The notes under the pieces: model-generated
What the model was told of the DNA's origin: nothing
The model's input: the letters and a program-made list of their open reading frames with translations, nothing else
Database searches by the model: none
Translations under genes and position numbers: made by a program
In this document: positions 37,219 through 53,933 of the stretch, in pieces
Layout: the number at the start of each line of letters is the position of its first letter
Position numbering within the stretch: position 1 is the stretch's first letter
Assembly: GCF_005298175.1 (NCBI RefSeq)
Contig: NZ_SZYH01000001.1
Coordinates: forward strand, 2,108,001 to 2,172,000
DNA length: 64,000 nt
Direction of reading: 5' to 3'
DNA from: Marinobacter panjinensis
GTDB taxonomy: Bacteria; Pseudomonadota; Gammaproteobacteria; Pseudomonadales; Oleiphilaceae

Positions 37219-38739
37219 TCAGAAGAAGCCCAGTGGATTGATGTCATAGCTGACCAGCAGGTTCTTGGTCTGCTGGTAATGGTCCAGCGCCATCTTGTGG
37301 TTCTCGCGGCCAACACCGGACTTCTTGTAACCACCGAAAGCGGCGTGAGCAGGGTACTGATGGTAGCAGTTAGTCCACACGCGGCCCGCCTGGATGCCAC
37401 GGCCCATGCGGTAGGCACGGTTGATGTCGCGGGTCCACAGGCCGGCACCCAGACCAAACTCGGTGTCGTTGGCAATGGCCAGGGCTTCTTCCTCGTCCTT
37501 GAAGGTGGTCACACCCACCACCGGGCCGAAGATTTCTTCCTGGAACACCCGCATGTTGTTCTTACCCTTGAACAGGGTTGGCTGAATATAGAAGCCGTTG
37601 TTGAACTCACCTTCCATTTCCTCACGACCACCACCGGTCAGCACTTCCGCGCCTTCCTGCTTGCCGATTTCGAGGTAGGACATGATCTTGTCGAACTGCT
37701 CCTTGCTGGCCTGCGCGCCCACCTGCACGTCGGTATCCAGCGGGTTGCCACGCTTGATCGATTTGGTGCGTTCGATAACCTTGGCCATGAATTCGTCGTA
37801 CATGTCTTCCTGCACCAGGGCGCGAGACGGACAGGTACAGACTTCACCCTGGTTGAAGAACGCTAACACCAGGCCTTCCACGCACTTGTCAATGAATTCC
37901 GGCTCAGCCTGCATTACGTCGGAGAAGTAGATGTTGGGGGACTTGCCACCCAGTTCCACGGTAGACGGAATGATGTTCTCGGCCGCGCACTTGAGGATAT
38001 GGGCACCCACCGGGGTAGAGCCGGTAAACGCGATCTTGGCAATACGCTTGCTGGTAGCGAGCGCCTGACCGGCCTCGATGCCGTATCCGTTGACGATGTT
38101 GATCACCCCCGGAGGCAGCAGGTCGCCAATCAGGTCCATCAGGATCAGGATACTGGCCGGGGTCTGCTCGGCCGGCTTCATCACGGTGCAGTTTCCGGCC
38201 GCCAGGCAGGGCGCCAGTTTCCACACCGCCATCAGCAGCGGGAAGTTCCAGGGGATGATCTGGCCCACAACACCCAGAGGCTCGTGGTAGTGATAAGCCA
38301 CGGTGTTGTTATCAATGGCGCTGGAAGTGTCTTCCTGGGCGCGGATACAACCGGCGAAATAACGGAAGTGGTCCACCGCCAGCGGCAGGTCGGCGTTGAT
38401 GGTTTCACGCACCGCCTTGCCGTTGTCCCAGGTTTCAGCAACGGCCAGCATCTCGATGTTCTGCTCAATGCGGTCGGCAATTTTCAGCAGAATGTTGGAA
38501 CGTTCAGTGGTAGAAGTCTTGCCCCAGGCCGGTGCGGCCTTGTGAGCGGCGTCCAGAGCCAGTTCGATATCTTCGGCTGTGGAACGGGGAATCTCACAGA
38601 TCAGATCACCGGTTACCGGGGTGATGTTTTCAAAGTACTGACCCTTGGCGGGAGCGACCCACTCACCACCAATAAAATTTTCGTAACGGGGTTTGAAGGA
38701 GACGACGGAGCCTTCCTTTCCTGGTTGTGCGTAGATCAT
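37219..38739 (-). CDS. exaC: NAD-dependent aldehyde dehydrogenase ExaC
   Basis: 506 aa from ATG 38739 ([19 protein letters not shown]), the exact length usual for ExaC; the frame extends to 39117 but that part is non-coding. ALDH features: the catalytic Glu in VELGGKSPN, the nucleophile Cys in [13 protein letters not shown], and GSTPVGAHI for cofactor binding. It oxidises acetaldehyde and related aldehydes made by ExaA. A conserved motif lies about 111 nt upstream and a terminator downstream, so it is transcribed alone. Confidence 0.95.
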
Positions 38740-38849
38740 GGTCTCAACCTCTTGTTGTGTTTGTCGAAGGGCAACGCGGCCTTTCGCGTTTACCCAATTA
38801 ATGTAGACCCCAACGACGGATAGGTGAATGATTCGATGGAGGTGAAAAA

Positions 38850-38867
38850 CTCGTTCCTTAGTAGTAG
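38850..38867 (-). promoter_or_regulatory. Putative alcohol-regulon operator upstream of exaC
   Basis: On the coding strand CTACTACTAAGGAACGAG, about 111 nt before exaC. It differs from the exaB site (CTACTACCAAGGAACTAG) at two of 18 positions and from the exaA site (TTACTACCAAGTGATGAG) at five. Confidence 0.55.
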
Positions 38868-38938
38868 ATGGCATCAAAGCCGCGCCAGTACTGGTCAAAC
38901 CTGCCTGAATAAATATTGCACCGTGAAATCCCTCACTG

Positions 38939-38957
38939 GCGCACAAAAACAGTGCGC
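38939..38957 (+). promoter_or_regulatory. NtrC-like enhancer site
   Basis: GCGCAC-AAAAACA-GTGCGC is a 19-nt dyad with the NtrC core spacing GCAC-N7-GTGC. It lies about 70-90 nt upstream of a sigma-54 promoter at 39028. It suggests nitrogen-limitation control of the guanidine operon. Confidence 0.5.
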
Positions 38958-39027
38958 ATGCCCTGACAGGAAGCAAGCACACTTCGCCGTCAAAATAAAA
39001 AGCCAACAAAAGCAGACGGTTAATAGT

Positions 39028-39043
39028 TGGCATAGTCTCTGCA
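39028..39043 (+). promoter_or_regulatory. Sigma-54 promoter of the guanidine degradation operon
   Basis: TGGCAT-AGTCTC-TGCA has GG and GC at the obligatory -24/-12 spacing. Transcription from here would begin near 39053, about 60 nt before the riboswitch. Confidence 0.65.
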
Positions 39044-39114
39044 ATACCCGTATGACGCAGCGAGAAGTCGGTTACCGAAACCAGCATCAAAGCGCGACAA
39101 TCTGACAAATAGTT

Positions 39115-39231
39115 CAACTAGGGTTCCGGCCTGTTCCTCGTAGTGATGCAAAAGCGAGACAAAACAGGTGACTGGTCCGAGAGTTGACGACCTTTTCCAA
39201 GGTTACACGGCGGGACAAAAGCCCGGGAGGA
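39115..39231 (+). ncRNA. Guanidine-I (ykkC) riboswitch
   Basis: Conserved blocks of the aptamer appear in order: CTAGGGTTCCG (39118-39128), CTGGTCCGAGAG (39172-39183), and TACACGGCGGGACAAAAGCC then CGGGAG (39204-39229). The stem-loop between the first two blocks varies, as expected. It senses guanidine and turns on genes for its removal. The gap to the first gene (39232-39288) has no clear terminator hairpin, so control may be translational. The second copy at 49179 shows the same blocks. Confidence 0.93.
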
Positions 39232-39288
39232 TCGTTCAGTGACTGACGTCTCTCGTTTCTTTGAACCCCGCACCAGAAGGAAAAGGCG

Positions 39289-40023
39289 ATGCTCGACTCT
39301 CTCAATAGCGCAGCCCCCCTCTACGACGATCTGATTCCCGGCGGATCCCACTGGTCTTTCATCATGCGTCGCGGCCATGTTCTGCGCCTGATTGACGAAA
39401 CCGGCGGGGCCAATGTCGGCATGCTGATGTACAACCCCGAGAACCCACTCGAGCGGTACAACATGCCGGACACCCTGAAAAATCAGCACACCTTCCTGCT
39501 GACCAGGGGCCACGTATTGCTTTCGGACATGGGCCGGGTGTTTGCCTCGGTCATCCGCGACGACCTGGGCTGGCATGATACGGTCAGCGGCACCTGCAAC
39601 GCCGAACTGGTCGAAAAGCGCTGGGGCAAAAAGACCTATCAGGAAGCCCACAACCACTATCACCGCAACGGCTCTACCAGCTTCCTCAACGAGCTGGCCA
39701 AGTACGGCCTGGGCAAGAAAGACCTGACCGCCAACCTGAACTGGTTCAGCAAGGTGCAAACCGACGACGACGGCAACATGGCCTTCGACGCCAACCACTC
39801 GCACGCCGGCGCCACCGTAGACCTGCGTTTCGAGATGGACACCATCGTGGTGCTGCACACCTGCCCGCATCCGATGAATCCGGCCAGCGAGTACCCCAGC
39901 CATCCCGTGCGTTACCAGCTGTTCAAGTCGGCCCCAGTGAACGATGCCGACCCTTGTAAGCTCTCGTCACCGGAGGCCACCCGCGCCTTCGCCAACACTG
40001 CCCTTTATCACCTGTTTCAGTAA
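39289..40023 (+). CDS. cgdA: Carboxyguanidine deiminase subunit (UAAP1 family)
   Basis: 244 aa, ATG 39289 with AGAAGG 8 nt upstream. It has the family pattern 'IPGGSHWSFIMRRGHVLRL', NPENPLERYNMPDTLKNQHT, and a Cys/His-rich putative metal site (SGTCNAEL, HTCPHPMNP). The family was named urea amidolyase-associated protein 1; biochemical work in Pseudomonas showed that the UAAP pair forms carboxyguanidine deiminase, releasing ammonia to give allophanate. It is first in the riboswitch operon and 12 nt before the partner subunit. Which of the two is called A or B is not certain here. Confidence 0.88.
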   Translation: MLDSLNSAAPLYDDLIPGGSHWSFIMRRGHVLRLIDETGGANVGMLMYNPENPLERYNMPDTLKNQHTFLLTRGHVLLSDMGRVFASVIRDDLGWHDTVSGTCNAELVEKRWGKKTYQEAHNHYHRNGSTSFLNELAKYGLGKKDLTANLNWFSKVQTDDDGNMAFDANHSHAGATVDLRFEMDTIVVLHTCPHPMNPASEYPSHPVRYQLFKSAPVNDADPCKLSSPEATRAFANTALYHLFQ

Positions 40024-40035
40024 CGGAGGCCGGAC

Positions 40036-40674
40036 ATGATCAAGCAAAGCGCATTGAAACCCGACAACGCCGCCTTCCGCGAAACCGTACCGGCAGGCGA
40101 GTATTTCCTGAAAGTCGTTAAGGCCGGCCAGACCGTCCGCATCCTGGACCTGGAAGGCAACCAGGCCGCAGACACCCTTTTCTACAACGCCCACAACCCC
40201 TCCGAGCGTTACAGCGCCGCAGACACCATCCGCGAGCAAGGCAACGTTTACCTGACCGCCGGTTCCAGGCTGATGTCCTCGGAAAACAACGTAATGCTGG
40301 AGATCACCGCCGATACCTGTGGCCGTCACGACACCCTGGGTGGCGCCTGCGCGGCGGAGAGCAACACCACCCGTTATGCACTGGAAAAAAAGTGCATGCA
40401 CGCCTGCCGCGACAGTTGGCTGGTAGCGGTTACCGAGCATGAAGAGCTGGGCATGACCAAGCGGGACATCACCCACAACATCAACTTCTTCATGAACGTG
40501 CCGGTGACCGCGGACGGCGGCCTGACCTTCGCCGATGGCATTTCCGACGCCGGCAAATATGTGGAGCTGGAAGCGAAGATGGACGTGCTGGTAATGATCT
40601 CCAACTGCCCGCAGCTGAACAACCCCTGCAACGGCTGGAACCCCACACCGATCGAGGTGCTGGTATGGAGCTGA
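40036..40674 (+). CDS. cgdB: Carboxyguanidine deiminase subunit (UAAP2 family)
   Basis: 212 aa. '[20 protein letters not shown]', then [20 protein letters not shown] and [13 protein letters not shown], with conserved Cys and His residues typical of UAAP2. It pairs with the preceding protein. A good GGAGG site precedes ATG 40036, and the stop lies inside the carboxylase start, a 10-nt overlap. The fold is shared with the upstream subunit, so the two arose by duplication. Confidence 0.9.
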
Positions 40675-43600
40675 CCGGCGCCCTCAATAACCCCGACAAA
40701 GTCCTGATTGCCAATCGCGGCGCCATTGCCTGCCGGGTGATTCGCACCCTGCGGGAAATGGGGATCACTTCGGTGGTGGTCTACGCCGAGGCGGATGCCG
40801 ACTCCCTGCATGTGCGACAGGCAGACGAAGCTTACTCGCTGGGTGAAGGCTCGGCCGCAGCCACCTATCTGGACCAGGACAAGCTTTTCGAGATCGTCCG
40901 CAAGAGCAGCGCGGGCGCCATCCATCCGGGCTATGGATTTCTCAGCGAAAACGCGGATTTTGCCCGTCGTTGTGATGCCGAGGGCGTGGTGTTCCTCGGC
41001 CCTACGCCCGAACAGATGGAGCAATTCGGCCTCAAGCACACCGCCCGGGCTCTGGCCGAGGAAGCTGGCGTACCACTGCTGCCCGGCACCGGCCTGCTGA
41101 CGGGTCTGGACGAAGCGATACAGGCGGCTGAGGCAATCGGCTATCCGGTGATGCTGAAAAGCACTGCCGGCGGTGGTGGCATTGGCATGTCCCGCTGTTA
41201 CAGCGCCGAGGAGCTGGGCAAGACTTTCGAGTCGGTACAGCGCCTGAGCCAGAACAACTTCAGCAACAGCGGCGTGTTCCTGGAAAAATTCGTGGAGCAC
41301 GCGCGCCATATTGAAGTGCAGCTGTTCGGAGACGGAAAAGGCCAGGTGGCTGCCCTGGGCGAGCGGGACTGCTCCGCCCAGCGCCGGAACCAGAAGGTGA
41401 TCGAGGAAGCGCCTGCGCCCGGTCTGACCGACGACGTCCGCACCCGCATGCATGCCACCGCCCGCCAGCTGGGCGAAAGCATTGCCTACCGCAGTGCCGG
41501 CACCGTGGAGTTTATCTACGACCCGGACACCACCGAGTTCTACTTCCTGGAAGTGAACACCCGCTTACAGGTAGAGCACGGTGTCACCGAACAGGTTTAC
41601 GGTGTGGACCTGGTGCGCTGGATGGTGGAACTCGGGGCCGGCACCCTGCCCGATCTGAAAGGGCTGAGTGGCAACCTTACTGCTTCCGGACATGCCATTC
41701 AGGCGCGCATCTATGCCGAGGATCCCAACAAGGATTTCCAGCCCGGTGCAGGTTTGCTGACAAACGTAACCTGGCCAGATGATGAAGGCCTGCGGATTGA
41801 CACCTGGATACAGCCGGGCACCGAAGTCTCGCCCCTGTTCGACCCCATGATGGCCAAGGTCATTGTGCATGAGCAGGACCGCGAGGCAGCCCGCAAGCGG
41901 TTGATGCTAGCCCTGGATGACAGTCGGCTGTATGGCATTGAAACCAACCTGAAGTACGTTCGCCAGGTGCTGGATGACCCGCGTTTTGTGGAAGGCCGCC
42001 TGTTCACTCGCACCCTCAATGAATTCGACTACCAGCCAGCCACCGTGGACGTGCTCAGTGGCGGCACAATGACGACTATCCAGGATTACCCCGGACGGAT
42101 CGGCTACTGGGAAATCGGTGTACCGCCATCCGGCCCTTTCGACAGCTACTCGTTCCGGCTCGGTAACCGACTGCTGGGCAACCCGGAAAAAGCACCGGGC
42201 CTGGAAATCACCCTCAAGGGGCCGGTGCTCAGCTTTAACCGGGCCACCCAGATTGTGCTTGCAGGCGCACCACTGGACGCCACCCTGAACGATGAGCCGG
42301 TGGGTTTCTGGCAGGTGATCGACGTGCCCGCCGGCGCCACCCTGAAACTCGGAGCCACCACCGGCGATGGTGCACGGGCCTATGTGCTATTCCGTGGCGG
42401 CCTGGATTGCCCGGAATACCTCACCTCCTGCAGTACGTTTACCCTGGGACAGTTTGGCGGTCACTGTGGCCGGGCCCTGCGGGCCGGGGATGTGCTGGCT
42501 TTGAGCGACGCCACGCCCGTTGCTGCCACTACCCTGCCCAACGAGCTGAAACCGACCATCGGCAAGACCTGGAAGCTCCATGTGACCTATGGCCCCCACG
42601 GGGCGCCGGACTATTTCACCGGCCAGGACATCGACACCTTTTTCAGCAGCGACTGGGAAATCCACTACAACTCCAGCCGCACCGGCGTTCGCCTGATCGG
42701 CCCGAAACCGGAATGGGCCCGCAGCGACGGCGGCGAAGCCGGTATGCATCCCTCCAACATTCACGATAACGCCTACGCCGTGGGCACCGTGGATTTCACC
42801 GGCGACATGCCGGTGATCCTCGGCCCCGATGGCCCCAGCCTGGGTGGCTTCGTCTGCCCGGTCACCGTGATCAGCGCCGATCTGTGGAAACTGGGCCAGC
42901 TCAAGGCCGGCGACAAGGTGCGGTTTGTGCCGGTCAGCCAGGACCAGGCCGTTGCCCTAAGGGAAGCGCTGGACGAGTCCGTTGCAACGCTGACGCCTGC
43001 CACCGCACGTATCACGCCTATCAAACCGGAAACCCCGATTCTGGATTCGCTGAGTACCAGCGACCATGAAACCGGTGTGGTGTACCGGGCCGCCGGCGAC
43101 AACTACGTGCTGGTGGAATACGGCCCCATGGAGCTGGATATTCGACTGCGCTTCCGCGCCCACGCCCTGATGCTGTGGCTGCGTGAACAAAACCACGACG
43201 CCATTCTGGAACTCACACCGGGCATCCGCTCCCTGCAGGTGCATTACGACAGCCAGACACTGAATCAGCGCACGCTGCTTGACCTGCTGATCAGTGCCGA
43301 AAAGGCACTGGAAAAGCAGCCGGAATGGGACGTGCCGGCGCGCATCGTGCACCTGCCCCTGTCCTGGGACGACGAAGCCTGCCAGACCGCAATCGCCAAA
43401 TACATGCAGTCGGTGCGCAAGGACGCCCCCTGGTGCCCGAGCAACCTGGAGTTCATCCGCCGCATTAATGGCCTGAACAGCATCGACGACGTGAAAAAAA
43501 CCGTCTTCGATGCGAGCTATCTGGTGATGGGCCTGGGTGATGTCTATCTGGGCGCACCGGTTGCCACCCCTCTGGACCCCCGCCACCGGCTGGTCACCAC

Positions 43601-44300
43601 CAAGTACAACCCGGCCCGCACCTGGACCGCGGAAAACTCCGTGGGCATTGGCGGCGCCTATCTGTGCATCTACGGCATGGAAGGCCCGGGCGGCTACCAG
43701 TTTGTCGGTCGCACCCTGCAGATGTGGAACCGTTACCGCACCACAGACTTCTTCGAGCCCGGCAAGCCCTGGCTGCTGCGGTTTTTCGACCAGGTACGTT
43801 TCTACGAGGTCAGCGCCGAAGAGCTGCAGCAGATTCGTCGGGACTTCCCGAACGGTGACTACCCGATCAAGGTCGAGGAAACCCGCTTCAACCTGAAGGA
43901 CTACGAGCGGTTTCTTTCGGAAAACAACGACGAGATCCAGACCTTCACTGATAAACGAAAGCAGGCATTCGATGAGGAACTGCAGCGCTGGATCGAATCC
44001 GGCCAGATCAATTTCAGTTCCGAAGCGCCCATCGAGGACACCGGCGAGGACGACATCGCCAACCTGCCCGCCGGCCAGCATGCAGTGGAAAGCCACGTGG
44101 CTGGCAACCTTTGGGAATGCCTGGTCAAGCCCGGCGACACCATAGAAGCCCAGCGCCCGGTGGCCGTTGTCGAATCCATGAAGATGGAGATTGAGCTACT
44201 GAGCCCGATTGCCGGCCGCGTGGTCGACGTGCGCCGAGAGGCCGGCCAGGCGGTCTCACCGGGAACGCCAGTGGTAATCGTGGAAGAAATTACCGAGTAA
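40665..44300 (+). CDS. Guanidine carboxylase (annotated elsewhere as urea carboxylase)
   Basis: 1211 aa, biotin-dependent. Order: biotin carboxylase with ATP-grasp (about 10-450; [24 protein letters not shown]), two KipI/KipA-like carboxyltransferase domains (about 465-1120; '[20 protein letters not shown]', '[19 protein letters not shown]'), and a C-terminal biotinyl domain with [10 protein letters not shown] (Lys1173). No amidase domain is fused, so allophanate must be cleaved by a separate enzyme. Riboswitch control and the deiminase genes indicate guanidine as the real substrate rather than urea; family members of this context have been shown to prefer guanidine. The choice rests on context, since I have not compared the substrate-site residue. 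Confidence 0.9.
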
Positions 44301-44364
44301 TGCCAACAACGTTGAAATAAAAGACCAGATCTACCAAAACGGGCAACGCCCGAGGAGAGACACC

Positions 44365-45432
44365 ATGAAAACATCTGACCTGAACAAACGTCTGGCGGCC
44401 GGCCTGCTGACCGCGTCCCTGTCCATGGGCGCACTCGCCGAGGAAAAAGATTCCTTCAGCATCGCCTGGACCATCTACGCCGGCTGGGTGCCCTGGCAGT
44501 ACGCTGAGGACTACGGAATCATGGAAAAGTGGGCGGACAAGTACGATATCGAGGTGGACATCGTGCAGGTCAACGACTACATCGAATCCATCAACCAGTT
44601 CACCGCCGGCCAGTTTGACGGCGTGGTGGCGACCAGCATGGACGGACTGTCGATTCCGGCAGCATCGGGCATAGATACCACAGCGCTGATCGTAGGTGAC
44701 TACTCCAATGCCAACGATGGCCTTGTCTCCAAGGACGCCACGTCCATTGAAGAACTGGAAGGCGAAACCGTGCACCTGGTGGAGCTGTCCGTTTCCCATT
44801 ATCTGCTGGTCCGCGCCCTGAACACTGTTGGGCTGGAAGAGCGCGACATCAGTGTGGTGAACATTTCCGATGCTGATCTGGTATCCGCATTCCAGACCGA
44901 CGACGTTCGCCACGTCGCAACCTGGAACCCGCTGTTGACGGAAGTAACCAACTACCCTGGCGCGACGCCGCTGTTTGATTCCAGCCAGATTCCGGGCCAC
45001 ATCAAGGATCTGACACTGGTGAACACCGAGACACTGGAAGACAATCCGAAACTGGGCAAGGCGTTGGTCGGTGCCTGGTACGAGACCATGAGTATCCTGG
45101 CGTCCGATTCCGAGGAGGGTCAGGAAGCTCGGGCGTTCCTCGGTGAGATTTCAGGTACCGATCAGGTCGGTTACGAGGCGCAGTTGGAGGGCATGAAGAT
45201 GTTCTGGAAGCCGGAGGATTCGGTGGAGTTTATCCGCAGCGAGGAAGCCCGGGAGGCGATGGACAGTGTTCGTCAGTTCTCGTTCGACAAGGGCCTGCTG
45301 GGCCAGGGTGCCATGAGCCCGGACTTCGTTGGCATCGAGTTCCCGGACGGCTCCATCATGGGCGACTCGAGCAATGTGAAGCTGCGGTTTAACGACAGCT
45401 TCATGCAGATGGCCGCTGACGGCGAAATCTGA
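44365..45432 (+). CDS. ABC substrate-binding protein for guanidine (NitT/TauT-like)
   Basis: 355 aa. Signal peptide (LLTASLSMGALA), then a type II periplasmic-binding fold starting FSIAWTIYAGWVPWQYAEDYG. The family is the one found beside urea/guanidine carboxylases. It ends the first riboswitch operon, 64 nt after the carboxylase gene, while its permease and ATPase partners are 4 kb away behind a second riboswitch. It probably binds guanidinium in the periplasm. Confidence 0.85.
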   Translation: MKTSDLNKRLAAGLLTASLSMGALAEEKDSFSIAWTIYAGWVPWQYAEDYGIMEKWADKYDIEVDIVQVNDYIESINQFTAGQFDGVVATSMDGLSIPAASGIDTTALIVGDYSNANDGLVSKDATSIEELEGETVHLVELSVSHYLLVRALNTVGLEERDISVVNISDADLVSAFQTDDVRHVATWNPLLTEVTNYPGATPLFDSSQIPGHIKDLTLVNTETLEDNPKLGKALVGAWYETMSILASDSEEGQEARAFLGEISGTDQVGYEAQLEGMKMFWKPEDSVEFIRSEEAREAMDSVRQFSFDKGLLGQGAMSPDFVGIEFPDGSIMGDSSNVKLRFNDSFMQMAADGEI

Positions 45433-45462
45433 TGATCTCGTTGCTTGCCTCATAAGTTACCG

Positions 45463-45490
45463 AAGGGCACGATGACTCGTGCCCTTTTTT
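45463..45490 (+). terminator. Rho-independent terminator of the guanidine operon
   Basis: A 10-bp perfect stem AAGGGCACGA/TCGTGCCCTT with a 4-nt loop, followed by a run of T. It closes the first riboswitch operon 30 nt after the binding-protein gene. Confidence 0.93.
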
Positions 45491-45506
45491 GTTGGCTTTG
45501 GAGCAT

Positions 45507-45619
45507 GGTTGGGGGCGGATGGTCTCTCCAAAACACGCTCCTTCGGCACATCCATGTGACGCTTGGACTCGGCCATCCATGGCTCCGTACAGCTTTGGAG
45601 AGACCACCCGCCCCCAACC
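45507..45619. repeat. Long-hairpin intergenic repeat, copy A
   Basis: Arms 45507-45532 and 45594-45619 are inverted, 26 nt, with one mismatch that becomes G-U in RNA. The 61-nt centre carries ACACGCT...ATCCATGTGACGCTTGG and a CCATCCATGG palindrome. The centre aligns with copy C at 46309 (reverse orientation) and with the left half of copy B at 58413. Confidence 0.75.
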
Positions 45620-45654
45620 CCGAACGCAAGTGCAAACCGGAGAGAAATCTACCA

Positions 45655-46266
45655 ATGCGTCGAACCAAGGAAGATGCTGAGAAGACCCGCCAGACAGTTC
45701 TGGAAGCTGCGTTAACACTGTTCAGTCGGGATGGTTATTCCCTCACTACGCTGAGCCGTATTGCCAAAGAAGCTGGTTGCAGCCGTGGGCCGATTTACTG
45801 GCATTTTCAGAACAAGGATGACCTTTACGAAGCGGTGCTCGCCTATTCCCAGGAACCGCTGGAAGCGTTGGTGGCTGAATGCGCAGGTATGTGGGAGACG
45901 CCGATTGAGGCGATGGACCGGTTTATCAAGCAATGGCTGGAGCTACTGGCCAATAACAGACAATACCGGCAGTCCTTCGAGATTCTGTTGAACAAGACCG
46001 AACTGACCGATGCCATGAGCCGCACGCTGAAGCGGGAGCGGGCGCTGACGAAGTCGATTATCGGGCTGTTCCGGGATTTGGTGGGGCAGGCGGTTGAGCA
46101 AGGTTTGATCACAACGGAAGAAGACCCCAAAGACCTGGGCTTGCTAAGTTACACCTATTTGATGGGCATTACCCAGACGTGGCTGTTTGCGCCAAAACTG
46201 TTTTCACTTAAACGGGAAACGCCGTTTTTTCAGCGGCAATTTTGGGCATTGCTCGGGAAGAAGTAG
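45655..46266 (+). CDS. TetR/AcrR-family repressor
   Basis: 203 aa from ATG 45655, with GGAGAG upstream; the longer frame from 45445 runs through a terminator and a repeat and is rejected. N-terminal TetR helix-turn-helix ('TTLSRIAKEAGCSRGPIYWHF', split by the fold at residues 35-55), then an all-helical ligand domain similar to AcrR/TtgR. There is no efflux operon next to it; the neighbours are the guanidine operon upstream and type III glutamine synthetase convergent. Targets are unknown. Confidence 0.88.
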   Translation: MRRTKEDAEKTRQTVLEAALTLFSRDGYSLTTLSRIAKEAGCSRGPIYWHFQNKDDLYEAVLAYSQEPLEALVAECAGMWETPIEAMDRFIKQWLELLANNRQYRQSFEILLNKTELTDAMSRTLKRERALTKSIIGLFRDLVGQAVEQGLITTEEDPKDLGLLSYTYLMGITQTWLFAPKLFSLKRETPFFQRQFWALLGKK

Positions 46267-46308
46267 CGAAAGAAAGCGCCATTCGTGGTTGCAGGCAACT
46301 GCATGGTA

Positions 46309-46420
46309 GCGCTGGCGGGTGGGAGCCCTTTCAGGGGATGTCGAAAACAGGGATGTTTTCGTCAAGCGTACAGGGACGTATTTACAGCGTGGCCCTGAAA
46401 GGGCTCCCACCCGCCAGCGC
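46309..46420. repeat. Long-hairpin intergenic repeat, copy C
   Basis: Perfect 28-bp inverted arms (46309-46336 and 46393-46420) enclose a 56-nt centre with its own 7-bp hairpin (CGAAAAC/GTTTTCG). It lies between the convergent tetR and glutamine synthetase genes and could terminate both. Its reverse complement aligns with copy A in the centre. Confidence 0.8.
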
Positions 46421-46437
46421 GGTCAGAGTAAAACCGA

Positions 46438-47796
46438 TCAGAACATCTTCAGATACCGCTCCACCTCCCATTCAGACACGTGGTTCTGGTAGCTCTCCCA
46501 TTCTCCTTTCTTGTACTCCACAAAGCTTTTGAACATTGCCTCGCCGAACACCTCTTTGGCCAGCGGATCTGCCTCGAAAGCCTCCACCGCCTCACCCAGG
46601 TTACGGGGCAGGTATTCGATGCCACGCTCGGCGATTTCCGCGTCGCTGTAGTTGTACATGTTTTCGTGGTGGGGAGCGCCCACATCGAGGCCCTCACGGA
46701 TGCCTTCCAGGCCGGCGGCCAAAATCAGGGCGCTGCCGAGGTAGGGGTTACAGGCGATATCGGCGGCGCGGCACTCAATGCGGCCGCCCATGCCGGGGAT
46801 GCGGATCATATTGGTGCGGTTGTTGGAGCCGTAGCACATGAACACCGGTGCCCAGGTGGAACCGGACATGCTGCCCTGGCGAACCAGACGCTTATAGCTG
46901 TTTACCGTGGGAGCGATGACGGCGCTGATGGCGGCACCGTGTTTCAACACACCGGCGGTGAAGTGATAGGCAATCTTGCTGATGCCGCAGTCATGCAGGT
47001 CATCGCCGTCAGGCTCGAACAGGTTCTTGCCGGTTTTGATGTCCGCCAAAGACATATTGTAGTGGGCGCCGCTGCCGGTTCGGTCACCAAATGGCTTCGG
47101 CATGAAGCTGGCAAACGCGCCGTGCTTGCGGGCGATTTCGTTAGCCATCATGCGGAAGAATACCAGGCGGTCGGCCATGGTCAGGCCGTCGGCGTATTTG
47201 AAGTCGGTTTCGAACTGGCCGTTGGCGTCTTCGTGGTCGAACGAGTACACATCCCATCCCAGTTCGTTCATGGCATCCACCAGCTCGTCCAAGACGGGCA
47301 GGTTGTCCATCAGGGTGCGTGGGTCGTAGCAGGGTTTGCCGAGGGTATCGCGGTCACTCAGGGGTGCGAAACCGCCATCCTCGGTGTCGCGGAATATGAA
47401 AAACTCGGTCTCGATGCCCAGGTTGAAGCGATAACCCTTGCTGGCAGCCGCATCCAGCTGGCGCCGGAGAATGTTGCGGGAGCAGGCCTCAAAAGGCGCA
47501 CCATTCAGGTACAGGTTGCCGGGAAACCACGCCAGCTGGCGGTTCCAGGGGCAGATGGCCACGCCATCAGCATCCGGTATCGCCGCCACTTCGTCATCGG
47601 AGATATCCTGAGGCACGCCGTCCAGGGCGGCCCCGGTGTATAGCTCGGAGCCTTCCATCATCTGGCCAAGGTGAGCAACGGGCACAAACTTACCCTTACT
47701 GATGCCATGAATATCCACGTAACTGGCGATGGCGTATTTGACGCCGGCATCCGCGAGCTTCTGTTTCAAGGCCTGGTTGTTGGTCAGGTCTGTCAT
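46438..47796 (-). CDS. glnT: Type III glutamine synthetase-like enzyme
   Basis: 452 aa from ATG 47796, preceded by GAGGGG; the frame extends far upstream to 48132. Glutamine synthetase fold, with ETEFFIF for metal binding, 'GSGAHYNMSLADIKTGKNLF' (GAH loop), and 'NRTNMIRIPGMGGRIECRAAD' split over the glutamate site. Residue pattern and length fit the GlnT/type III branch seen in rhizobia and marine bacteria rather than the housekeeping GlnA. It could assimilate ammonia released by guanidine breakdown, or glutamylate an amine. There is no adenylylation-site context to judge regulation. Confidence 0.85.
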   Translation of the reverse strand: MTDLTNNQALKQKLADAGVKYAIASYVDIHGISKGKFVPVAHLGQMMEGSELYTGAALDGVPQDISDDEVAAIPDADGVAICPWNRQLAWFPGNLYLNGAPFEACSRNILRRQLDAAASKGYRFNLGIETEFFIFRDTEDGGFAPLSDRDTLGKPCYDPRTLMDNLPVLDELVDAMNELGWDVYSFDHEDANGQFETDFKYADGLTMADRLVFFRMMANEIARKHGAFASFMPKPFGDRTGSGAHYNMSLADIKTGKNLFEPDGDDLHDCGISKIAYHFTAGVLKHGAAISAVIAPTVNSYKRLVRQGSMSGSTWAPVFMCYGSNNRTNMIRIPGMGGRIECRAADIACNPYLGSALILAAGLEGIREGLDVGAPHHENMYNYSDAEIAERGIEYLPRNLGEAVEAFEADPLAKEVFGEAMFKSFVEYKKGEWESYQNHVSEWEVERYLKMF

Positions 47797-47955
47797 TGCG
47801 TTTCCCCTCATTAACCCGGCGAAGCGGGTAATCAATGTGTGTTCTGGCACGTTTCTTTCTAGAGCTTTGCCATTCAACTTACATGCCAGCGTGTATATAT
47901 AATTAACAAAAGGTCGATTCAGGACCTGGAAACCGCACGGAAAGAGAGGCCAGAA

Positions 47956-48987
47956 ATGACGGTAAAGCAGTGGCTTAAAGATGATTTTGAAGCGGGCGAC
48001 CTGCCCCTTTCCAGCGGTGAAACCCTGAACTCTGCCCGCCTGCACTACCACCAGATCGGGGAGCTGAATGCACCAAAAGACAACCTGATCCTGCTGCCCA
48101 CGTACTATGGTGGTGCAGCGACGGGCAACCATCCCTGGGTTGGCGGCGCCAGCCCGCTGGACCCTGACAGGTACTGCATCGTCATCCCGTCCCTGCTGGG
48201 GGCCGGGGAATCCTCGTCCCCATCAAACACCCGGGGGCAACAGGCCGGCCCCGGCTTTCCCGCGGTCACTCTTTACGACAATGTGATGCTGCAGAAACGC
48301 CTGGTGGACGACGTGTTCGGTGGTGCCAGCATTGCCCTGGCGATGGGCTGGTCCATGGGCGGTATGCAGGCACTGCAATGGGGCTGTCTGTTTCCGGAAC
48401 AGGTTCATGCGGTGCTGGCCACCTGCTGCACGGCGCGCTGCTATCCCCATAACCGGGTGTTTCTGGAAGGCGTTAAAGCCGCCCTGACCTGTGATCAGGC
48501 TTTTCAGGATGGCCACTATCGGAGTCCACCAGAAAGGGGGCTCCGTTCGTTTGGCCGGGTGTATGCCGGCTGGGCCTATTCCCAGGCGTTCTTCCGTCAT
48601 GAGCTCTGGCGCGAGCTCGGATTCGGTTCTGTCGAGGCGCTATTGCGATTCTGGGAGGAAGATCACCTGGCACAGGACGCCAACAACCTGCTGGCCGTGC
48701 TGGACACCTGGCAGCGGGGCGATATCAGCGACAACCCGGTGTTTCAGGGCAACTACACGGCAGCGCTTGCCACACTCACCGTACAAACCCGGGTAATGCC
48801 CAGCACCACAGATCTCTACTTTACCGCCGAGGATGCCCAGCATGACGCCCGACAAATGCCGGGAGCCTCGCTTGAAGTCCTGCCATCAGAGTGGGGGCAT
48901 ATTGCCGGTGGTGCGGGGCGAGAGCGCCAGAGCCATCAAAAAATTCTTGCCGCAGCTCATTCGCTGCTGTCGAAGAGAGATCCATGA
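47956..48987 (+). CDS. MetX-like alpha/beta hydrolase
   Basis: 343 aa, ATG 47956. Nucleophile elbow GWSMGGMQALQWG, an acid Asp in the TTDLYFTAEDAQ region, and the closing His in EWGHIAGGAG. The layout resembles homoserine acetyltransferase (MetX), with a helical lid between. No met genes adjoin. It sits between glutamine synthetase (divergent) and the second guanidine riboswitch, and its substrate is unknown. It could be an amidase or esterase serving the same nitrogen locus, which is conjecture. Confidence 0.75.
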   Translation: MTVKQWLKDDFEAGDLPLSSGETLNSARLHYHQIGELNAPKDNLILLPTYYGGAATGNHPWVGGASPLDPDRYCIVIPSLLGAGESSSPSNTRGQQAGPGFPAVTLYDNVMLQKRLVDDVFGGASIALAMGWSMGGMQALQWGCLFPEQVHAVLATCCTARCYPHNRVFLEGVKAALTCDQAFQDGHYRSPPERGLRSFGRVYAGWAYSQAFFRHELWRELGFGSVEALLRFWEEDHLAQDANNLLAVLDTWQRGDISDNPVFQGNYTAALATLTVQTRVMPSTTDLYFTAEDAQHDARQMPGASLEVLPSEWGHIAGGAGRERQSHQKILAAAHSLLSKRDP

Positions 48988-49008
48988 CAGTGCACCCGAA
49001 ACGGCCAC

Positions 49009-49023
49009 GCACCGCTATAGCGC
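49009..49023 (+). promoter_or_regulatory. Weak NtrC-like site
   Basis: GCAC-CGCTATA-GCGC keeps the GCAC-N7-G-GC spacing with one mismatch. It lies 55 nt upstream of the sigma-54 promoter at 49078. Low certainty. Confidence 0.3.
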
Positions 49024-49077
49024 ACATTTTTGCCGGTAATCGGCCTGAAAGCGCTGGTTATTCCCGTTTTACGAAGC

Positions 49078-49093
49078 TGGCACGCCACCTGCA
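49078..49093 (+). promoter_or_regulatory. Sigma-54 promoter of the guanidine transporter operon
   Basis: TGGCACG-CCAC-CTGCA matches the -24/-12 consensus at every invariant position. Transcription would start near 49104, about 75 nt before the second riboswitch. Confidence 0.75.
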
Positions 49094-49178
49094 CTACTCT
49101 GGACAGACGGTTTAATACCAGGATCCGTTCACAACAACACCGCGAGGCATGCGGCGAAGACAACGAACACAATGGGTG

Positions 49179-49282
49179 ACTAGGGTTCCGGTCCGGGCAG
49201 ATGACCATCATCAGCCCGGATGGCTGGTCCAAGAGTTACCGACCTCTGGGAGGTTACACGGCGGGACAAAAGCCCGGGAGAC
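49179..49282 (+). ncRNA. Guanidine-I (ykkC) riboswitch, second copy
   Basis: CTAGGGTTCCG at 49180-49190, CTGGTCCAAGAG at 49223-49234, and TACACGGCGGGACAAAAGCC then CGGGAG at 49256-49281. One base differs from copy 1 in the second block. The segment to the permease gene (49283-49348) shows no T-tract terminator. It would place import under the same guanidine signal as degradation. Confidence 0.93.
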
Positions 49283-49348
49283 TGAATCGCAAGGGATGCT
49301 GTTGCCCGCGATGAACGTGCCGTGTTGTGTGACCAGAGGAGATAACCT

Positions 49349-50164
49349 ATGCGAATGATCAACCGACACCCAGGGCGTGTTTCAGCCACTTTGCTTGGCC
49401 TGCTTCCCTTCCTGTTGATCATGTTGATCTACAGCCTTGCCTCCCAGGAGCGCCTGGCTGAGAATCCCAACGACAAACTGCTGCCCGGTCTGCAACAGAT
49501 GACCGCCGCAGTGGACCGCATGGCCTTTCAGGAAGACCGGCGCAGCGGTGACTACCTGATGTGGCAGGACACCACCGCCAGCCTGCAACGCCTTGGAATC
49601 GGGGTTACCATTGCCGCTTCTCTGGCATTGGTGGTGGGCGTTCTTAATGGCGCACTGCCGCTGGTAAGAGCAAACCTCGCACCACTGGTGTCAGCGCTTT
49701 CCATGGTCCCGCCCCTGGCGATACTGCCTATCCTGTTTATCGTATTCGGCCTTGGAGAACTCTCCAAGGTCATGCTGATCGTTATCGGCACAGCACCCAT
49801 CATGATGCGGGATGTGGCACAGCGGGTGCGGGAACTTCCCGGCGAGCAACTGATCAAGATCCAGACCCTCGGTGCCAACTCCTGGCAGGTCATTACACGC
49901 ATGGTGTTGCCCCAGGTTCTGCCACGTCTGATCGACTCCGTGCGTCTGGGTCTGGGCCCGGCATGGTTGTTCCTGATTGCCGCAGAAGCCATCGCCTCCA
50001 CCGAAGGCCTGGGCTATCGCATCTTTCTGGTTCGCCGATATCTCGCCATGGACGTAATTCTGCCCTATGTCATCTGGATCACCATTCTTGCCATTGTCAT
50101 CGATCAGTGTCTGCGACTTGCCAACCGCAGGCTGTTCCCGTGGTACAACGCAGGAGGTCACTGA
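49349..50164 (+). CDS. ABC transporter permease for guanidine (NitT/TauT-like)
   Basis: 271 aa. ATG 49349 has a strong GAGGAG site. Six or so transmembrane helices and the cytoplasmic EAA loop ('REVLPGEQLIKIQTLGANSW'-like segment at about 165-185). It is the membrane part of the importer whose binding protein is at 44365. Its stop shares one base with the ATPase start. Confidence 0.88.
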   Translation: MRMINRHPGRVSATLLGLLPFLLIMLIYSLASQERLAENPNDKLLPGLQQMTAAVDRMAFQEDRRSGDYLMWQDTTASLQRLGIGVTIAASLALVVGVLNGALPLVRANLAPLVSALSMVPPLAILPILFIVFGLGELSKVMLIVIGTAPIMMRDVAQRVRELPGEQLIKIQTLGANSWQVITRMVLPQVLPRLIDSVRLGLGPAWLFLIAAEAIASTEGLGYRIFLVRRYLAMDVILPYVIWITILAIVIDQCLRLANRRLFPWYNAGGH

Positions 50165-50949
50165 TGAGCTTTATTACGGTTAATAATCTCTGGAAAGAGT
50201 ATGGCGATCTGGTGGTACTGGAAAACCTGAACCTGAGCGTGAAACAGGGCGAATTCTGTACGCTCGTTGGCGCTTCAGGTTGCGGTAAATCCACCTTCCT
50301 GAAAATGCTGCTGGGCCAGGAAACCCCGAGCCGCGGCGAGTTGTTGCTGGAAGGCGAGGCCTTTCCGGGAGAACCGGACCGAAACCGGGGGATCGTGTTC
50401 CAGCGCTACTCGGTGTTCCCGCACCTGACCGTACGCCAGAATGTTCTGATGAGCCTGGAACTCAAGCAGAAGCCCTGGCTCGGCAAACTGTTTGGCAGCG
50501 CCCGTCGCGCAGCCCTGGAGAAGGTGGACGCGATGCTGACATCGGTTGGTCTGGAAGCCTCGGCCGACAAATGGCCCCATGAGCTCTCAGGCGGCATGCA
50601 ACAGCGCCTGGCCATCGCCCAGTCCCTGATCATGCGTCCGCGTGTACTGTTGCTGGACGAGCCTTTCGGTGCCCTGGACCCGGGTATTCGCAAGGATATG
50701 CACGATCTGCTGCTGAAGCTGTGGCAGGAAACGGGAACCACCATTTTCATGGTCACCCATGACCTGAAAGAAGGCTTCTATCTGGGAACCCGGTTACTGG
50801 TCTTTGACAAGGTTCGTCACGACCCGCACGACCCCGAAGCATTCGGTGCGACCATTACCTATGACCTGCCCATCGGCCAGGTCAACAGCAAACTGTTCGA
50901 AGACATCAACGACTCGGTTGCCCAGACAGCCCGCCATCAGGCAGCCTGA
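50164..50949 (+). CDS. ABC transporter ATP-binding protein for guanidine uptake
   Basis: 261 aa from ATG 50164. Walker A GASGCGKST, signature LSGGMQQRLAIAQ, Walker B VLLLDEPFGALD and the His-loop VTHD are all present. NitT/TauT-type ATPase. It ends the second riboswitch operon; a hairpin 22 nt downstream faces mainly the opposite strand. Confidence 0.9.
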   Translation: MSFITVNNLWKEYGDLVVLENLNLSVKQGEFCTLVGASGCGKSTFLKMLLGQETPSRGELLLEGEAFPGEPDRNRGIVFQRYSVFPHLTVRQNVLMSLELKQKPWLGKLFGSARRAALEKVDAMLTSVGLEASADKWPHELSGGMQQRLAIAQSLIMRPRVLLLDEPFGALDPGIRKDMHDLLLKLWQETGTTIFMVTHDLKEGFYLGTRLLVFDKVRHDPHDPEAFGATITYDLPIGQVNSKLFEDINDSVAQTARHQAA

Positions 50950-50971
50950 GTGGACCCGGCATCGTGCCAAC

Positions 50972-51000
50972 AAAAAAGGGGCTGCCCGAAGGCAGCCCCT
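50972..51000 (-). terminator. Rho-independent terminator of exaA
   Basis: On the minus strand a 10-bp stem AGGGGCTGCC/GGCAGCCCCT with a TTCG-type loop is followed by TTTTTTG. It lies 34 nt after the exaA stop and may also stop the plus-strand guanidine transporter operon. Confidence 0.9.
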
Positions 51001-51033
51001 GAAAAACCCAGATAGCATCGGCGTTGCGCCAGA

Positions 51034-52809
51034 TCAGTTAGCGGCAACCCGGTCACTCGGCAACTTGAAGGTCCAGACTGTGCCGCCCTGGTTGAAGTCC
51101 TTGACCACCCTGGCCACTTCGCCACCCCAGAGCGGAACCGCACCGCCCCAGCCAGTGGAAATGGATACATACTGGTCGCCGTCCATTTCCCAGGTTACGG
51201 GTGTGCCGACAACACCGGTACCGGTATTGAACTTGTAGAGCTCTTCACCCGTCTTGGCGTCGAACGCCTTCAGGTAGCCTTCCGGCGTGCCGGTAAAGAC
51301 CAGGTTGCCTGCGGTGGCCAGTACGCCACCCCAGAGCGGGGCCGGGTTGTTATAGCGCCAGACTTCCTCACCGGTTTTCGGGTCTACGGCACGCAGGACA
51401 CCGATGAATTCATCGTTTGCGGGCTTGATGGTGAAGCCGGCACCCAGATAGGCAGCACCTTTCTTGTAGGAAACCGGCTCGTTCCAGATATCCATCGACC
51501 ATTCATTGGATGGTACGTAGAACAGGCCGGTGTCCTGGCTGTAGGCCATGGGCATCCAGTTCTTGCCGCCCAGGAACGCCGGGAAGGCAACGACCGTTTC
51601 ACCTTTCTCACCATCGGCGTTAGCCGGGTTGCCCGGACGACCGTTCTCGGTATTGTAGATCGGGCTGCCATCTTCATTCAGGCCTTTGGCCCAGGTGATC
51701 TTGTCCACAAACGGGAAGCCACGGATAAAGTCACCGTTCTCACGGTTCAGGACATAGAAGAAGCCGTTACGGTCCGCTGTGGCAGCTGCCTTGACGGTTT
51801 TGCCGTTTTCTTCGTAATCAAAGGAAATCAGCTCGTTCACACCGTCGTAATCCCAGCCATCATTGGGCGTGGTCTGGAAGTGCCACTTGATGCTGCCATC
51901 GTCGGGATCAATGGCGACGCGTGAGGATGAAAACAGGTTGTCACCCGGGCGAAGGTGAGAGTTCCACGGGGCCGGGTTACCGGTGCCGAAGAACAGCGAG
52001 TCGGTATCCGGGTCATAGGTGCCACCCAGCCAGGTTGCCGCGCCACCGGTCTTCCACATGTCGCCAGGCCAGGTCTTGCCGGCTTCGCCACCGGAGATAC
52101 CGTTTTCAATCTCCTTGCCGTCTTTATAGACATAACCCATGTGACCTTCCACGGTCGGACGCATCCACAGCAGGTCACCCGTGTTCGGGTCGCGGGCCTC
52201 AACCTTGCCGACAATGCCGAATTCGCCACCGGAAACACCGGTAATCAGCTTGCCTTTGACAATCAGCGGGGCTGCCGTCATTGAGTAACCGGCCTGATAA
52301 TCCGCAACTTTCTTGATCCAGACTACCTTGCCGGTGTCCTTGTTCAGGGCCACGAGCTTGGCGTCCAGGGTGCCGAAAATAAACAGGTCGTCGTAAAGAG
52401 CACCACCCCGGTTGACCACATCACAACAGGGCATGATGCCATCCGGAAGACGGGCATCGTATTGCCAGATTTCTTCGCCGGTACGCGCATCAATCGCATA
52501 AGCCCGTGAATAGGACGCCGTCACATACATGACGCCATCCTTGATCAATGGCTGGGACTCCTGGCCCCGCTGCTTCTCGCCACCAAATGAGAATGCCCAA
52601 GCCGGCTGCAGGTACCGGACGTTATCTGTGTTCAGAGCATCCATCGGGCTGAAACGCTGGCCCTGAACGCCCATACCGTAGCTTACGATATCATCGACAG
52701 TGTTATGGTCATTCAGGATATCTTCATCGGTGACCGCATGGGCCCCCAGTGATACAGCCAGCGCCAGGGCACTGGCGGCAAACTGTTTACCGAACGGATT
52801 CGATCTCAT
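51034..52809 (-). CDS. exaA: PQQ-dependent alcohol dehydrogenase ExaA
   Basis: 591 aa from ATG 52809, with GGAGAG upstream. Signal peptide ([13 protein letters not shown]), then an eight-bladed W-motif propeller. The adjacent-cysteine disulfide is Cys128-Cys129, and the metal and PQQ site has Glu196, Asn278 and the catalytic Asp320. Asp322, two residues on (WDYDG), is at the position that coordinates lanthanides in XoxF/PedH. Periplasmic oxidation of ethanol and other alcohols, electrons to cytochrome c550. An MxaJ-like gene and exaB follow upstream on the same strand. Whether the metal is calcium or a lanthanide is open. Confidence 0.94.
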
Positions 52810-52931
52810 GGTTGCGCTCTCCAAAGTCTCTTGTTGTCAGTGTGTGCAGCGAACCGGGAATTCTTCCCGCCTCTAAACTCCATTCTTGGCCTCACCCGCA
52901 ATCGCAACAATTAATCGCCCGAACAGGTTTT

Positions 52932-52949
52932 CTCATCACTTGGTAGTAA
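52932..52949 (-). promoter_or_regulatory. Putative alcohol-regulon operator upstream of exaA
   Basis: On the coding strand TTACTACCAAGTGATGAG, about 123 nt before exaA. It is the most divergent member of the motif set seen before exaB and exaC. Confidence 0.5.
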
Positions 52950-52958
52950 GACCCCCAC

Positions 52959-52981
52959 AAAAAAGCCCGCACACGGCGGGC
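52959..52981 (-). terminator. Rho-independent terminator of the MxaJ-like gene
   Basis: On the minus strand the stem GCCCGC/GCGGGC is followed by TTTTTTGTGG. It lies 20 nt after the gene ending at 53001 and separates it from the exaA promoter. Confidence 0.8.
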
Positions 52982-53000
52982 CAGAACAGCGGGCATTGCC

Positions 53001-53933
53001 TTATTCCCCATTTTTATCGGGGCCGAGAATCTCGTCGTAATAGCCCGGGCGGCTGTAAGAGAGTCCGTGGTTGGCGTAGAGCTCTGCCATTTCTCCGGAT
53101 CTGACCATGCCATCAACAATCGCTGCGATGGCGTATCCGAGGGCCCGATGTGTGTGGCGAACCGCCAGGCCCAAGTCCCACACCTGCTTGGTCATCCCGG
53201 GGAAGCCGTTCCCGGCTTTGGTAAAACCATTGCCGGTATGGGCCGCCAGTTGGTGCTCTATTTCCGCCCGCATACCCATCACGCCGGCAACCTCTTCCTG
53301 CTCCATAGCCTGGAATGCCTCTCCGACGTTCCCGTAATGATGCACCTGATTCCTCAGCCGCCCACCAAAGGCGGACGTCAGATAGGTGGCAGGAAGCGTG
53401 TCGATCTCCACACCGATCGGGTGATACTGAAACACCGCAACCGTTTCAACGCCGTCCAGTCGGCTCTTGTCAAAGGCAATCTGCCAGCGCTCCTGCTGGT
53501 AGGGGCCGAAGAAAACCACCTGCTCGTTGATCATTTCACCGGTGGAGTCCCTCATGTACTTGAAGGTGCTGTCGTAAGGCACCCGCATCATGATGTCCGC
53601 TATGCGGGTTTTCGCCAGATAGTGCCCTTTCCAGATATGGTTGCGCAGGTCGTCACCCAGGCTTTCATCCGGGATAATCCAGTAGGGACGAAATTCCACG
53701 CCCAGCCCCTCTGCAATGCGGCGGCCCAGGTCCGCGTCCACACCACGAACCTCGCCATTCACTTCGTAGGAATAAGGCGGAAAATCCTTGTACATGCCAA
53801 CATTCAGATAGCCGGAATCCTGAACAATATCCAGCGTTCGGTCCGGAATCAGGCTGCGGGATTGCTGAGCCTGTACCTGGCTGATGCCCACAAGCAGCAG
53901 TACCAGCATCAAGGCGTAAAATGCTGACTTCAT
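53001..53933 (-). CDS. MxaJ/XoxJ-like periplasmic binding protein
   Basis: 310 aa. Signal peptide (LMLVLLLVGISQVQAQ), then a family 3 solute-binding fold (LDIVQDSGYLNVGMYKDFPPYSY...ADLGRRIAEGLGVEF). There is no ABC permease beside it. Similar proteins next to quinoprotein dehydrogenases (MxaJ/XoxJ) are thought to help metal or PQQ insertion or maturation. It lies between exaB and exaA with its own terminator. The role is inferred from place and fold. Confidence 0.8.
   Translation of the reverse strand: MKSAFYALMLVLLLVGISQVQAQQSRSLIPDRTLDIVQDSGYLNVGMYKDFPPYSYEVNGEVRGVDADLGRRIAEGLGVEFRPYWIIPDESLGDDLRNHIWKGHYLAKTRIADIMMRVPYDSTFKYMRDSTGEMINEQVVFFGPYQQERWQIAFDKSRLDGVETVAVFQYHPIGVEIDTLPATYLTSAFGGRLRNQVHHYGNVGEAFQAMEQEEVAGVMGMRAEIEHQLAAHTGNGFTKAGNGFPGMTKQVWDLGLAVRHTHRALGYAIAAIVDGMVRSGEMAELYANHGLSYSRPGYYDEILGPDKNGE

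Follow-up and report, generated by a model that had tools for sequence, protein, structure and literature searches.

Predicted serial gating of guanidine assimilation genes by sigma-54 promoters and guanidine-I riboswitches in Marinobacter panjinensis

We analyzed a 64,000-nucleotide stretch (the window) of the genome of Marinobacter panjinensis (4,423,279 bases), which carries two gene units for the use of guanidine, operons A and B (Table 1), and conclude that each is likely controlled by a nitrogen-gated sigma-54 promoter and a guanidine-I riboswitch arranged in series. The −24/−12 promoters and NtrC-type dyads are kept in sequence and position among relatives. This conservation, the sharing of the dyad with glnA, ntrB, and glnK, and the failure of a consensus scan of 38700-51100 to find a sigma-70-like site make a joint requirement for nitrogen shortage and guanidine, that is, AND logic, the best reading of the anatomy. 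A preliminary description of the same DNA had proposed such a requirement, and the promoters, dyads, and spacing conserved in relatives support it. Promoter use, the identity of the activator as NtrC, the switching mechanism, and the AND behavior are all read from sequence and are worded below as predictions.

Table 1. Features of the guanidine locus, in coordinates of the window
Feature	Position	Strand	Remarks
NtrC-type dyad A, CGCAC-N7-GTGCG, CGCACAAAAACAGTGCG	38940..38956	.	center 80 nt upstream of −24; core 8/8
Predicted sigma-54 promoter A (−24/−12), TGGCATAGTCTCTGCA	39028..39043	+	15.7 bits; predicted start near 39054
Predicted guanidine-I riboswitch aptamer A	39107..39231	+	RF00442, 80.3 bits
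Candidate intrinsic terminator of switch A	39224..39262	+	13-pair stem then TTTCTTT; consensus of 44 distinct leaders
DUF1989 protein, UAAP1	39289..40023	+	annotated protein; first gene of operon A
DUF1989 protein, UAAP2	40036..40674	+	annotated protein; operon A
Guanidine carboxylase (urea carboxylase family)	40665..44300	+	1,211 residues; Asp710 at substrate-defining position; operon A
ABC transporter substrate-binding protein (TIGR03427)	44365..45432	+	last gene of operon A
Intrinsic terminator closing operon A	45462..45487	+	terminator scan
TetR-type regulator	45655-46266		between operons A and B
Type III glutamine synthetase	46438-47802	-	between operons A and B
MetX-like hydrolase	47956-48987		between operons A and B
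NtrC-type dyad B, CGCACC-N5-AGCGCA, CGCACCGCTATAGCGCA	49008..49024	.	center 62 nt upstream of −24; 9/12 positions, core 7/8
Predicted sigma-54 promoter B (−24/−12), TGGCACGCCACCTGCA	49078..49093	+	17.5 bits; predicted start near 49104
Predicted guanidine-I riboswitch aptamer B	49169..49282	+	RF00442, 84.0 bits
Leader B segment complementary to aptamer core and P2	49319..49341	+	candidate translational platform
ABC transporter permease	49349..50164	+	operon B
ABC transporter ATPase	50164..50949	+	start overlaps permease stop; operon B

Promoters, dyads, and aptamers in the window

Both ykkC (guanidine-I) aptamers were recovered by an Rfam search above the gathering score of the RF00442 covariance model (63 bits), and guanidine binding by them is predicted from membership in this family. 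No guanidine-I aptamer beyond these two was found by Rfam in the whole genome, and a hidden third aptamer within 38500-51500 was ruled out, with no match up to an E-value of 1. Each aptamer is preceded by a site with GG and GC 10 base pairs (bp) apart within TGGCAYR-N4-YTGCW, predicted to be used as a sigma-54 promoter, the end of which lies 63 nucleotides (nt) before aptamer A and 75 nt before aptamer B. Sigma-54 scores refer to a weight matrix with preset rather than fitted weights, applied to the 250 bases upstream of each aptamer. The genome, in which rpoN is present, contains 14 matches to the strict pattern TGGCAYRNNNNYTGCW on both strands (7 for a reversed-pattern control), including promoters A and B. 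Several of the other 12 lie inside reading frames, and 5 precede genes recognizable by their protein starts (a flagellar rod gene, a pilin, a TRAP-type binding protein, a NitT-like binding protein, and cyanase); none of the 12 has an 8/8 NtrC core among its two best dyads.

The dyads upstream of the promoters were compared with the NtrC palindrome of Escherichia coli. NtrC is encoded in the genome (767 bits) and is the putative activator of both operons. The dyad core YGCAC-N7-GTGCR occurs at 14 places in the genome, most of which are expected by chance, since the reversed control already yields 11. At four of these places a sigma-54 site scoring 11 bits or more comes next; these four lie before glnA, ntrB, and glnK, named from their protein starts, and before operon A.

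Much of this layout had been outlined in the preliminary description. The two aptamers, the degradation operon behind aptamer A, the permease/ATPase pair behind aptamer B, and the −24/−12 sites at 39028 and 49078 are where it had them, and the NtrC-like dyad that it noted at 38939-38957 before the first promoter is located at 38940-38956; the dyad of operon B (49008-49024) had not been listed.

Conservation within and beyond the family

In the family to which the window belongs, guanidine-I was found in 70 of 163 genomes with 117 matches, 116 of which were scored together and the 117th, in G155, separately (upstream sigma-54 score of 11.4 bits). Upstream of 107 of the 116 aptamers the sigma-54 motif reaches at least 11 bits, and upstream of 91 it reaches at least 14, compared with 2.6% and 0.6% of Markov controls and with 2.1% and 0.1% of background windows (3,898, taken from the fetched loci). 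Four of the nine sites under 11 bits print as 11.0; the lower ones belong to G005, G057 (C22), G157, G073, and G078, the last two with degenerate copies of the motif at the usual place. Promoter and aptamer lie 61-64 nt apart at 46 of the 51 operon-A sites scoring at least 10.9 bits, and 71-104 nt apart at 43 of the 45 operon-B sites (of which 35 are typed and 10 have an unreadable first frame). These counts represent non-independent events, because most of the genomes come from one genus.

Dyads matching TGCACC-N5-GGTGCA at 10 or more of 12 positions accompany 52 of the 107 family promoters (1.8% of Markov controls), and the perfect core GCAC-N7-GTGC accompanies 57 (0.5% of controls), the nine sites under 11 bits being left out of both counts. 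In operon A, the center of the best dyad lies 80-86 nt ahead of the promoter at 42 of the 47 sites. In operon B, it lies 62-65 nt ahead at 26 of the 35 typed sites and at 7 of the 10 untyped ones, and at the 15 sites where the binding-protein gene comes first, it falls anywhere between 74 and 166 nt. The inner bases of the dyads vary among relatives and the arms stay.

Guanidine-I was found in 29 of 369 genomes in a class-level search (the window's genome included) and in 42 of 398 in a phylum-level search (3 of the window's family included). All 85 listed out-of-family matches were scored by coordinates, 3 of them under the Rfam cut-off (G796, G718, and one of G610). Among gamma- and betaproteobacteria outside the family, the motif reaches at least 11 bits before 62 of 68 aptamers (49 genomes), and in a more distant group before 8 of 17 (15 genomes). 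At these 8 sites it ends 9-12 nt before the start of the aptamer model, so that transcription would begin at about the first base of the aptamer. The distant group is probably alphaproteobacterial, given that the same geometry recurs in named loci of Rhizobium, Pararhizobium, Roseibium, Pelagibius, Thalassospira, and Bauldia. Its nine motif-less aptamers comprise four in the f223 genomes, three before other genes (two in G610 and one in G796), and two in G607 and G554. The f223 genomes have no rpoN match over the cut-off (none in G718 and G748, a fragment in G848, and two in G895, the better just below), and rpoN is above the cut-off in 59 of the 64 genomes tested. Two of the three aptamers before other genes precede an exporter-like membrane protein, as judged by eye.

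The named loci, which are the best 80 of 568 matches and are biased to near relatives, gave a similar picture. A text pattern located aptamers in 41 of the 80, and 48 of these 50 aptamers print at least 11.0 bits, the exceptions being one aptamer each in L216 (9.3 bits) and L240 (7.3 bits). Rfam applied to 13 of the 39 pattern-negative loci found guanidine-I in 7 and none in 6; in these 7 and three annotated plasmid loci, the motif reaches at least 11 bits in 9 of 10 (exception L251, 8.3 bits). A Caballeronia plasmid with genes of the same kinds carries guanidine-I in front, guanidine-II before the carboxylase gene, and a sigma-54 motif of 14.0 bits.

From this distribution we lean slightly toward a wider proposal, in which serial sigma-54/NtrC and guanidine-I gating would be the general rule for guanidine assimilation in sigma-54 Proteobacteria, with the promoter type separating assimilation genes (−24/−12, fused to the aptamer start in alphaproteobacteria) from exporter genes (none). 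Confidence in the exporter half is lowered because it draws on just two exporter-like cases, whose aptamers both score under the Rfam cut-off, as does the G718 aptamer.

Several other arrangements were observed in these genomes. A guanidine-II element lies within the operon, besides the leading guanidine-I, in Caballeronia (L293:13194-13240), Pantoea vagans (L294:11047-11093), and Rhizobium johnstonii (L295:9698-9747). Divergent guanidine-I pairs within a few hundred bases of each other occur in G472, G217, G198, and G831 (L130, L133, L138, and L205), each aptamer with its own sigma-54-like motif of at least 12 bits. G610 has three guanidine-I matches (L186, L198, and L199), one of them below the cut-off, and a sigma-54 motif only at L186, the locus in which the binding-protein gene was read. 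Six loci of Stutzerimonas and other gammaproteobacteria (L219, L221, L222, L223, L232, and L288) encode binding-protein homologues at 56-71% identity and have no guanidine-I match in the fetched DNA; the substrate of these homologues may differ.

Predicted leader readout and two-input logic

In the mechanism that we propose, each unit would be transcribed from its own sigma-54 promoter, activated under nitrogen shortage by phosphorylated NtrC bound to the dyad, which lies some 60-80 bp ahead of the −24 element, and the transcript would start about 50-65 nt ahead of the aptamer. In operon A, which would supply the deiminase pair, the guanidine carboxylase, and the binding protein, guanidine would probably prevent formation of an intrinsic terminator whose 5′ arm starts in the 3′ end of the aptamer. 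In operon B, the permease and ATPase of which are taken to belong to the same importer, it would probably release a leader segment covering the Shine-Dalgarno sequence. With two gates in series on one transcript, expression would need nitrogen shortage and guanidine together.

The candidate terminator stem of switch A begins in the conserved 3′ end of the aptamer; a simple terminator scan did not pick it up. Ten of its 13 pairs are invariant and hence lend no covariation support, two vary and mostly stay paired (G-C, G-T, and A-T at the seventh), and a single mismatch occurs in the remaining one. Such a stem would correspond to the transcription-ON design usual for guanidine-I, according to excerpts of a review (PMC12186494). 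In leader B, GCCGTGT can pair with the core ACACGGC, and CCAGAGG, which lies over the Shine-Dalgarno sequence, with CCTCTGG of P2; no T-run was seen in this leader, and operon B is likely a translational switch. P2–leader complementarity is specific to the operon type (8.04 for A-A and 6.65 for B-B, versus 3.83 and 4.44 for the A-B crosses). It is not type-specific in the binding-protein-first leaders (4.83 versus 4.2-5.2 in crosses), the consensus fold of which gave P3 only.

Mean Shine-Dalgarno exposure, calculated from folding energies, behaves differently among the leader types. For operon B it is 0.43 with the aptamer versus 0.49 without and lower in 30 of 43 leaders, which is weakly as expected, and for the binding-protein-first leaders of the family it is 0.13 versus 0.29 and lower in 16 of 18, which fits the masking idea clearly. 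A single Shine-Dalgarno-masking mechanism for all leaders was rejected, as the exposure for operon A runs in the opposite direction (0.56 versus 0.31).

Three alternatives to serial gating were weighed. Under the first, which we regard as rather unlikely, a non-consensus sigma-70 promoter would give basal transcription and leave the riboswitch mostly alone in control, with sigma-54 boosting expression additively rather than through AND logic. Many promoters escape consensus scans, and some relatives keep the aptamer without a −24/−12 motif, so that other promoters can serve; however, a consensus scan of 38700-51100 found no sigma-70-like site, versus 4.1 expected from shuffles, the spacing of the sigma-54 motif is kept, and the RNA of the distant group would start at the aptamer itself.

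The sigma-54 promoters could also be real and respond to another enhancer-binding protein, for instance one with a different signal, with the riboswitch gate still standing. The genome encodes at least 11 strong NtrC-family matches in addition to NtrC, and the lesser clarity of the dyads outside the family, together with their absence from view in the distant group, would suit such an activator. We nevertheless consider it distinctly improbable: the dyads fit the E. coli NtrC palindrome, are shared with glnA, ntrB, and glnK, and stay in place across most of the family, no enhancer-binding protein is found among the proteins annotated in 37219-53933 (a set in which not every frame was scanned), and NtrC-dependence of homologues in Burkholderia has been published. 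According to excerpts of the Burkholderia cenocepacia H111 NtrC regulon study (PMC5491218), when nitrogen is limiting, the ntrC mutant shows a 6.0-fold drop in the urea carboxylase gene BCAS0272 and yields no reads for BCAS0269 (binding protein) or BCAS0271. Homologous carboxylase and binding-protein genes appear NtrC-dependent in that study (PMC5491218), the text of which mentions neither guanidine nor riboswitch; the H111 operon was compared by genes only.

A third reading, in which the −24/−12 and dyad sequences match by chance within DNA conserved through shared ancestry, is scarcely credible and was rejected on their genome-wide rarity, the background windows, and their recurrence before most gamma- and betaproteobacterial aptamers outside the family at differing spacings, which shared flanking DNA hardly explains, even though most of the 116 family sites come from one genus and are not independent; moreover, the dyad arms stay while the inner bases vary.

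Serial gating by nitrogen shortage and guanidine has to be set against several observations that weigh on the other side. The sigma-70 scan relied on a crude consensus. Dyad B is imperfect and, with a core of only 7/8, is not among the 14 dyad-core places of the genome; outside the family the dyads are weaker, with 20 of 62 matching at least 10 of 12 positions, and they are not evident at the 8 distant-group sites. G607 and G554 have rpoN and yet no motif, contrary to a strict rule, and G472 has two aptamers with sigma-54-like motifs and no rpoN found in a draft genome that is 96% complete. Finally, the operon A exposure values given above run counter to a masking readout.

Carboxylase specificity, related systems, and neighboring genes

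UAAP1 and UAAP2 are presumably the subunits of carboxyguanidine deiminase, and we take DUF1989 to correspond to COG3665. The permease and ATPase of operon B would complete the ATP-binding cassette (ABC) importer of the operon A binding protein. Asp710 of the operon A carboxylase aligns opposite Asn1330 of the Kluyveromyces lactis urea carboxylase, which we take to be the residue meant by the Asp/Asn rule. This rule, as given in excerpts of PMC12186494, assigns Asp to guanidine carboxylases and Asn to urea carboxylases. Of the fetched loci, 75 (some overlapping) have the Asp form, every one with an aptamer core. The sole Asn form among the loci examined is the second carboxylase of the window's own genome (L297/L304, C1 about 1,773,600), at a locus without an aptamer core. 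This locus also encodes allophanate hydrolase, which is missing from operon A; the hydrolase gene is preceded by a sigma-54-like site scoring 12.6 bits, and the locus contains NtrC-like half sites. The genome thus provides its own contrast, in which the urea genes have a candidate nitrogen-type promoter only and the guanidine genes have promoter and sensor. A UrtA-like gene, named by eye, adjoins the Asn-type locus.

The halves of the proposed control are in print separately. A sigma-54 survey predicted 102 COG3665 genes in the alpha, beta, and gamma classes to be sigma-54 dependent, 59% of them annotated as urea carboxylase (excerpts of PMC12316311), but filed them under "poorly characterized," without mention of guanidine and with riboswitch only in a reference title (PMC12316311). 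Guanidine operons of Raoultella, Erwinia, and Klebsiella, as described in parts of PMC12186494, share the aptamer class, enzymes, importer, and role in nitrogen supply with those of M. panjinensis; in that review, "sigma" appears nowhere in the text and "promoter" and "Ntr" only in the reference list. M. panjinensis differs from them in that its import genes are split off as a second unit with their own aptamer and promoter.

AND logic itself is known from nas operons, among which nasF has a sigma-54 promoter. In excerpts of PMC3369931 and PMC5424462, Klebsiella nasF and the Paracoccus nas operons combine Ntr control with leader antitermination by NasR or NasT, so that general nitrogen control is followed by substrate-specific release of a leader terminator and expression requires nitrogen shortage and substrate. 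Proteins sense the substrate there, whereas in M. panjinensis the leader RNA is predicted to sense guanidine. No ANTAR-domain antiterminator is found beside the guanidine operons among the proteins annotated in 37219-53933, and the units would therefore work like nas-type operons without being members of that group. The arrangement would be nas-type logic with RNA as the sensor, apparently widespread in guanidine assimilation.

The preliminary description had called the gate undescribed, which holds for the combination of riboswitch and sigma-54 in the open-licence literature and not for its halves or for AND logic as such. No paper joining a guanidine riboswitch to sigma-54, NtrC, or NtcA was found in that literature, a weak negative in view of the open-licence scope, with sources judged largely by titles and the starts of abstracts; term searches of PMC5748707, PMC7801951, PMC4842269, PMC12508155, and PMC11410670 gave nothing on the matter.

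If correct, serial gating would be a clear example, and a widespread one, of a riboswitch coupled in series to an enhancer-dependent promoter; the resulting AND gate would take two inputs and need no dedicated protein sensor. It would also support guanidine as a real nitrogen source and not a toxin only, because the genes for its use would switch on only under nitrogen shortage, and it would account for the presence of "urea carboxylase" genes in sigma-54 and NtrC regulons. The promoter type would make the question of nitrogen supply versus detoxification testable.

Among the remaining features of the cluster, two long inverted repeats flank the TetR-type gene, the first at 45507-45532 / 45594-45619 (26 nt at 96%) and the second at 46309-46336 / 46393-46420 (28 nt, perfect, with 56 nt between the arms); the 17-base core of the first pair has no other copy in the genome. 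Judged by the binding protein, Marinobacter loci (L211-L218, 79-93% identical) come nearest among the best 80 of 568 named matches. The type III glutamine synthetase, encoded between the two operons, represents a further nitrogen gene in the guanidine cluster.

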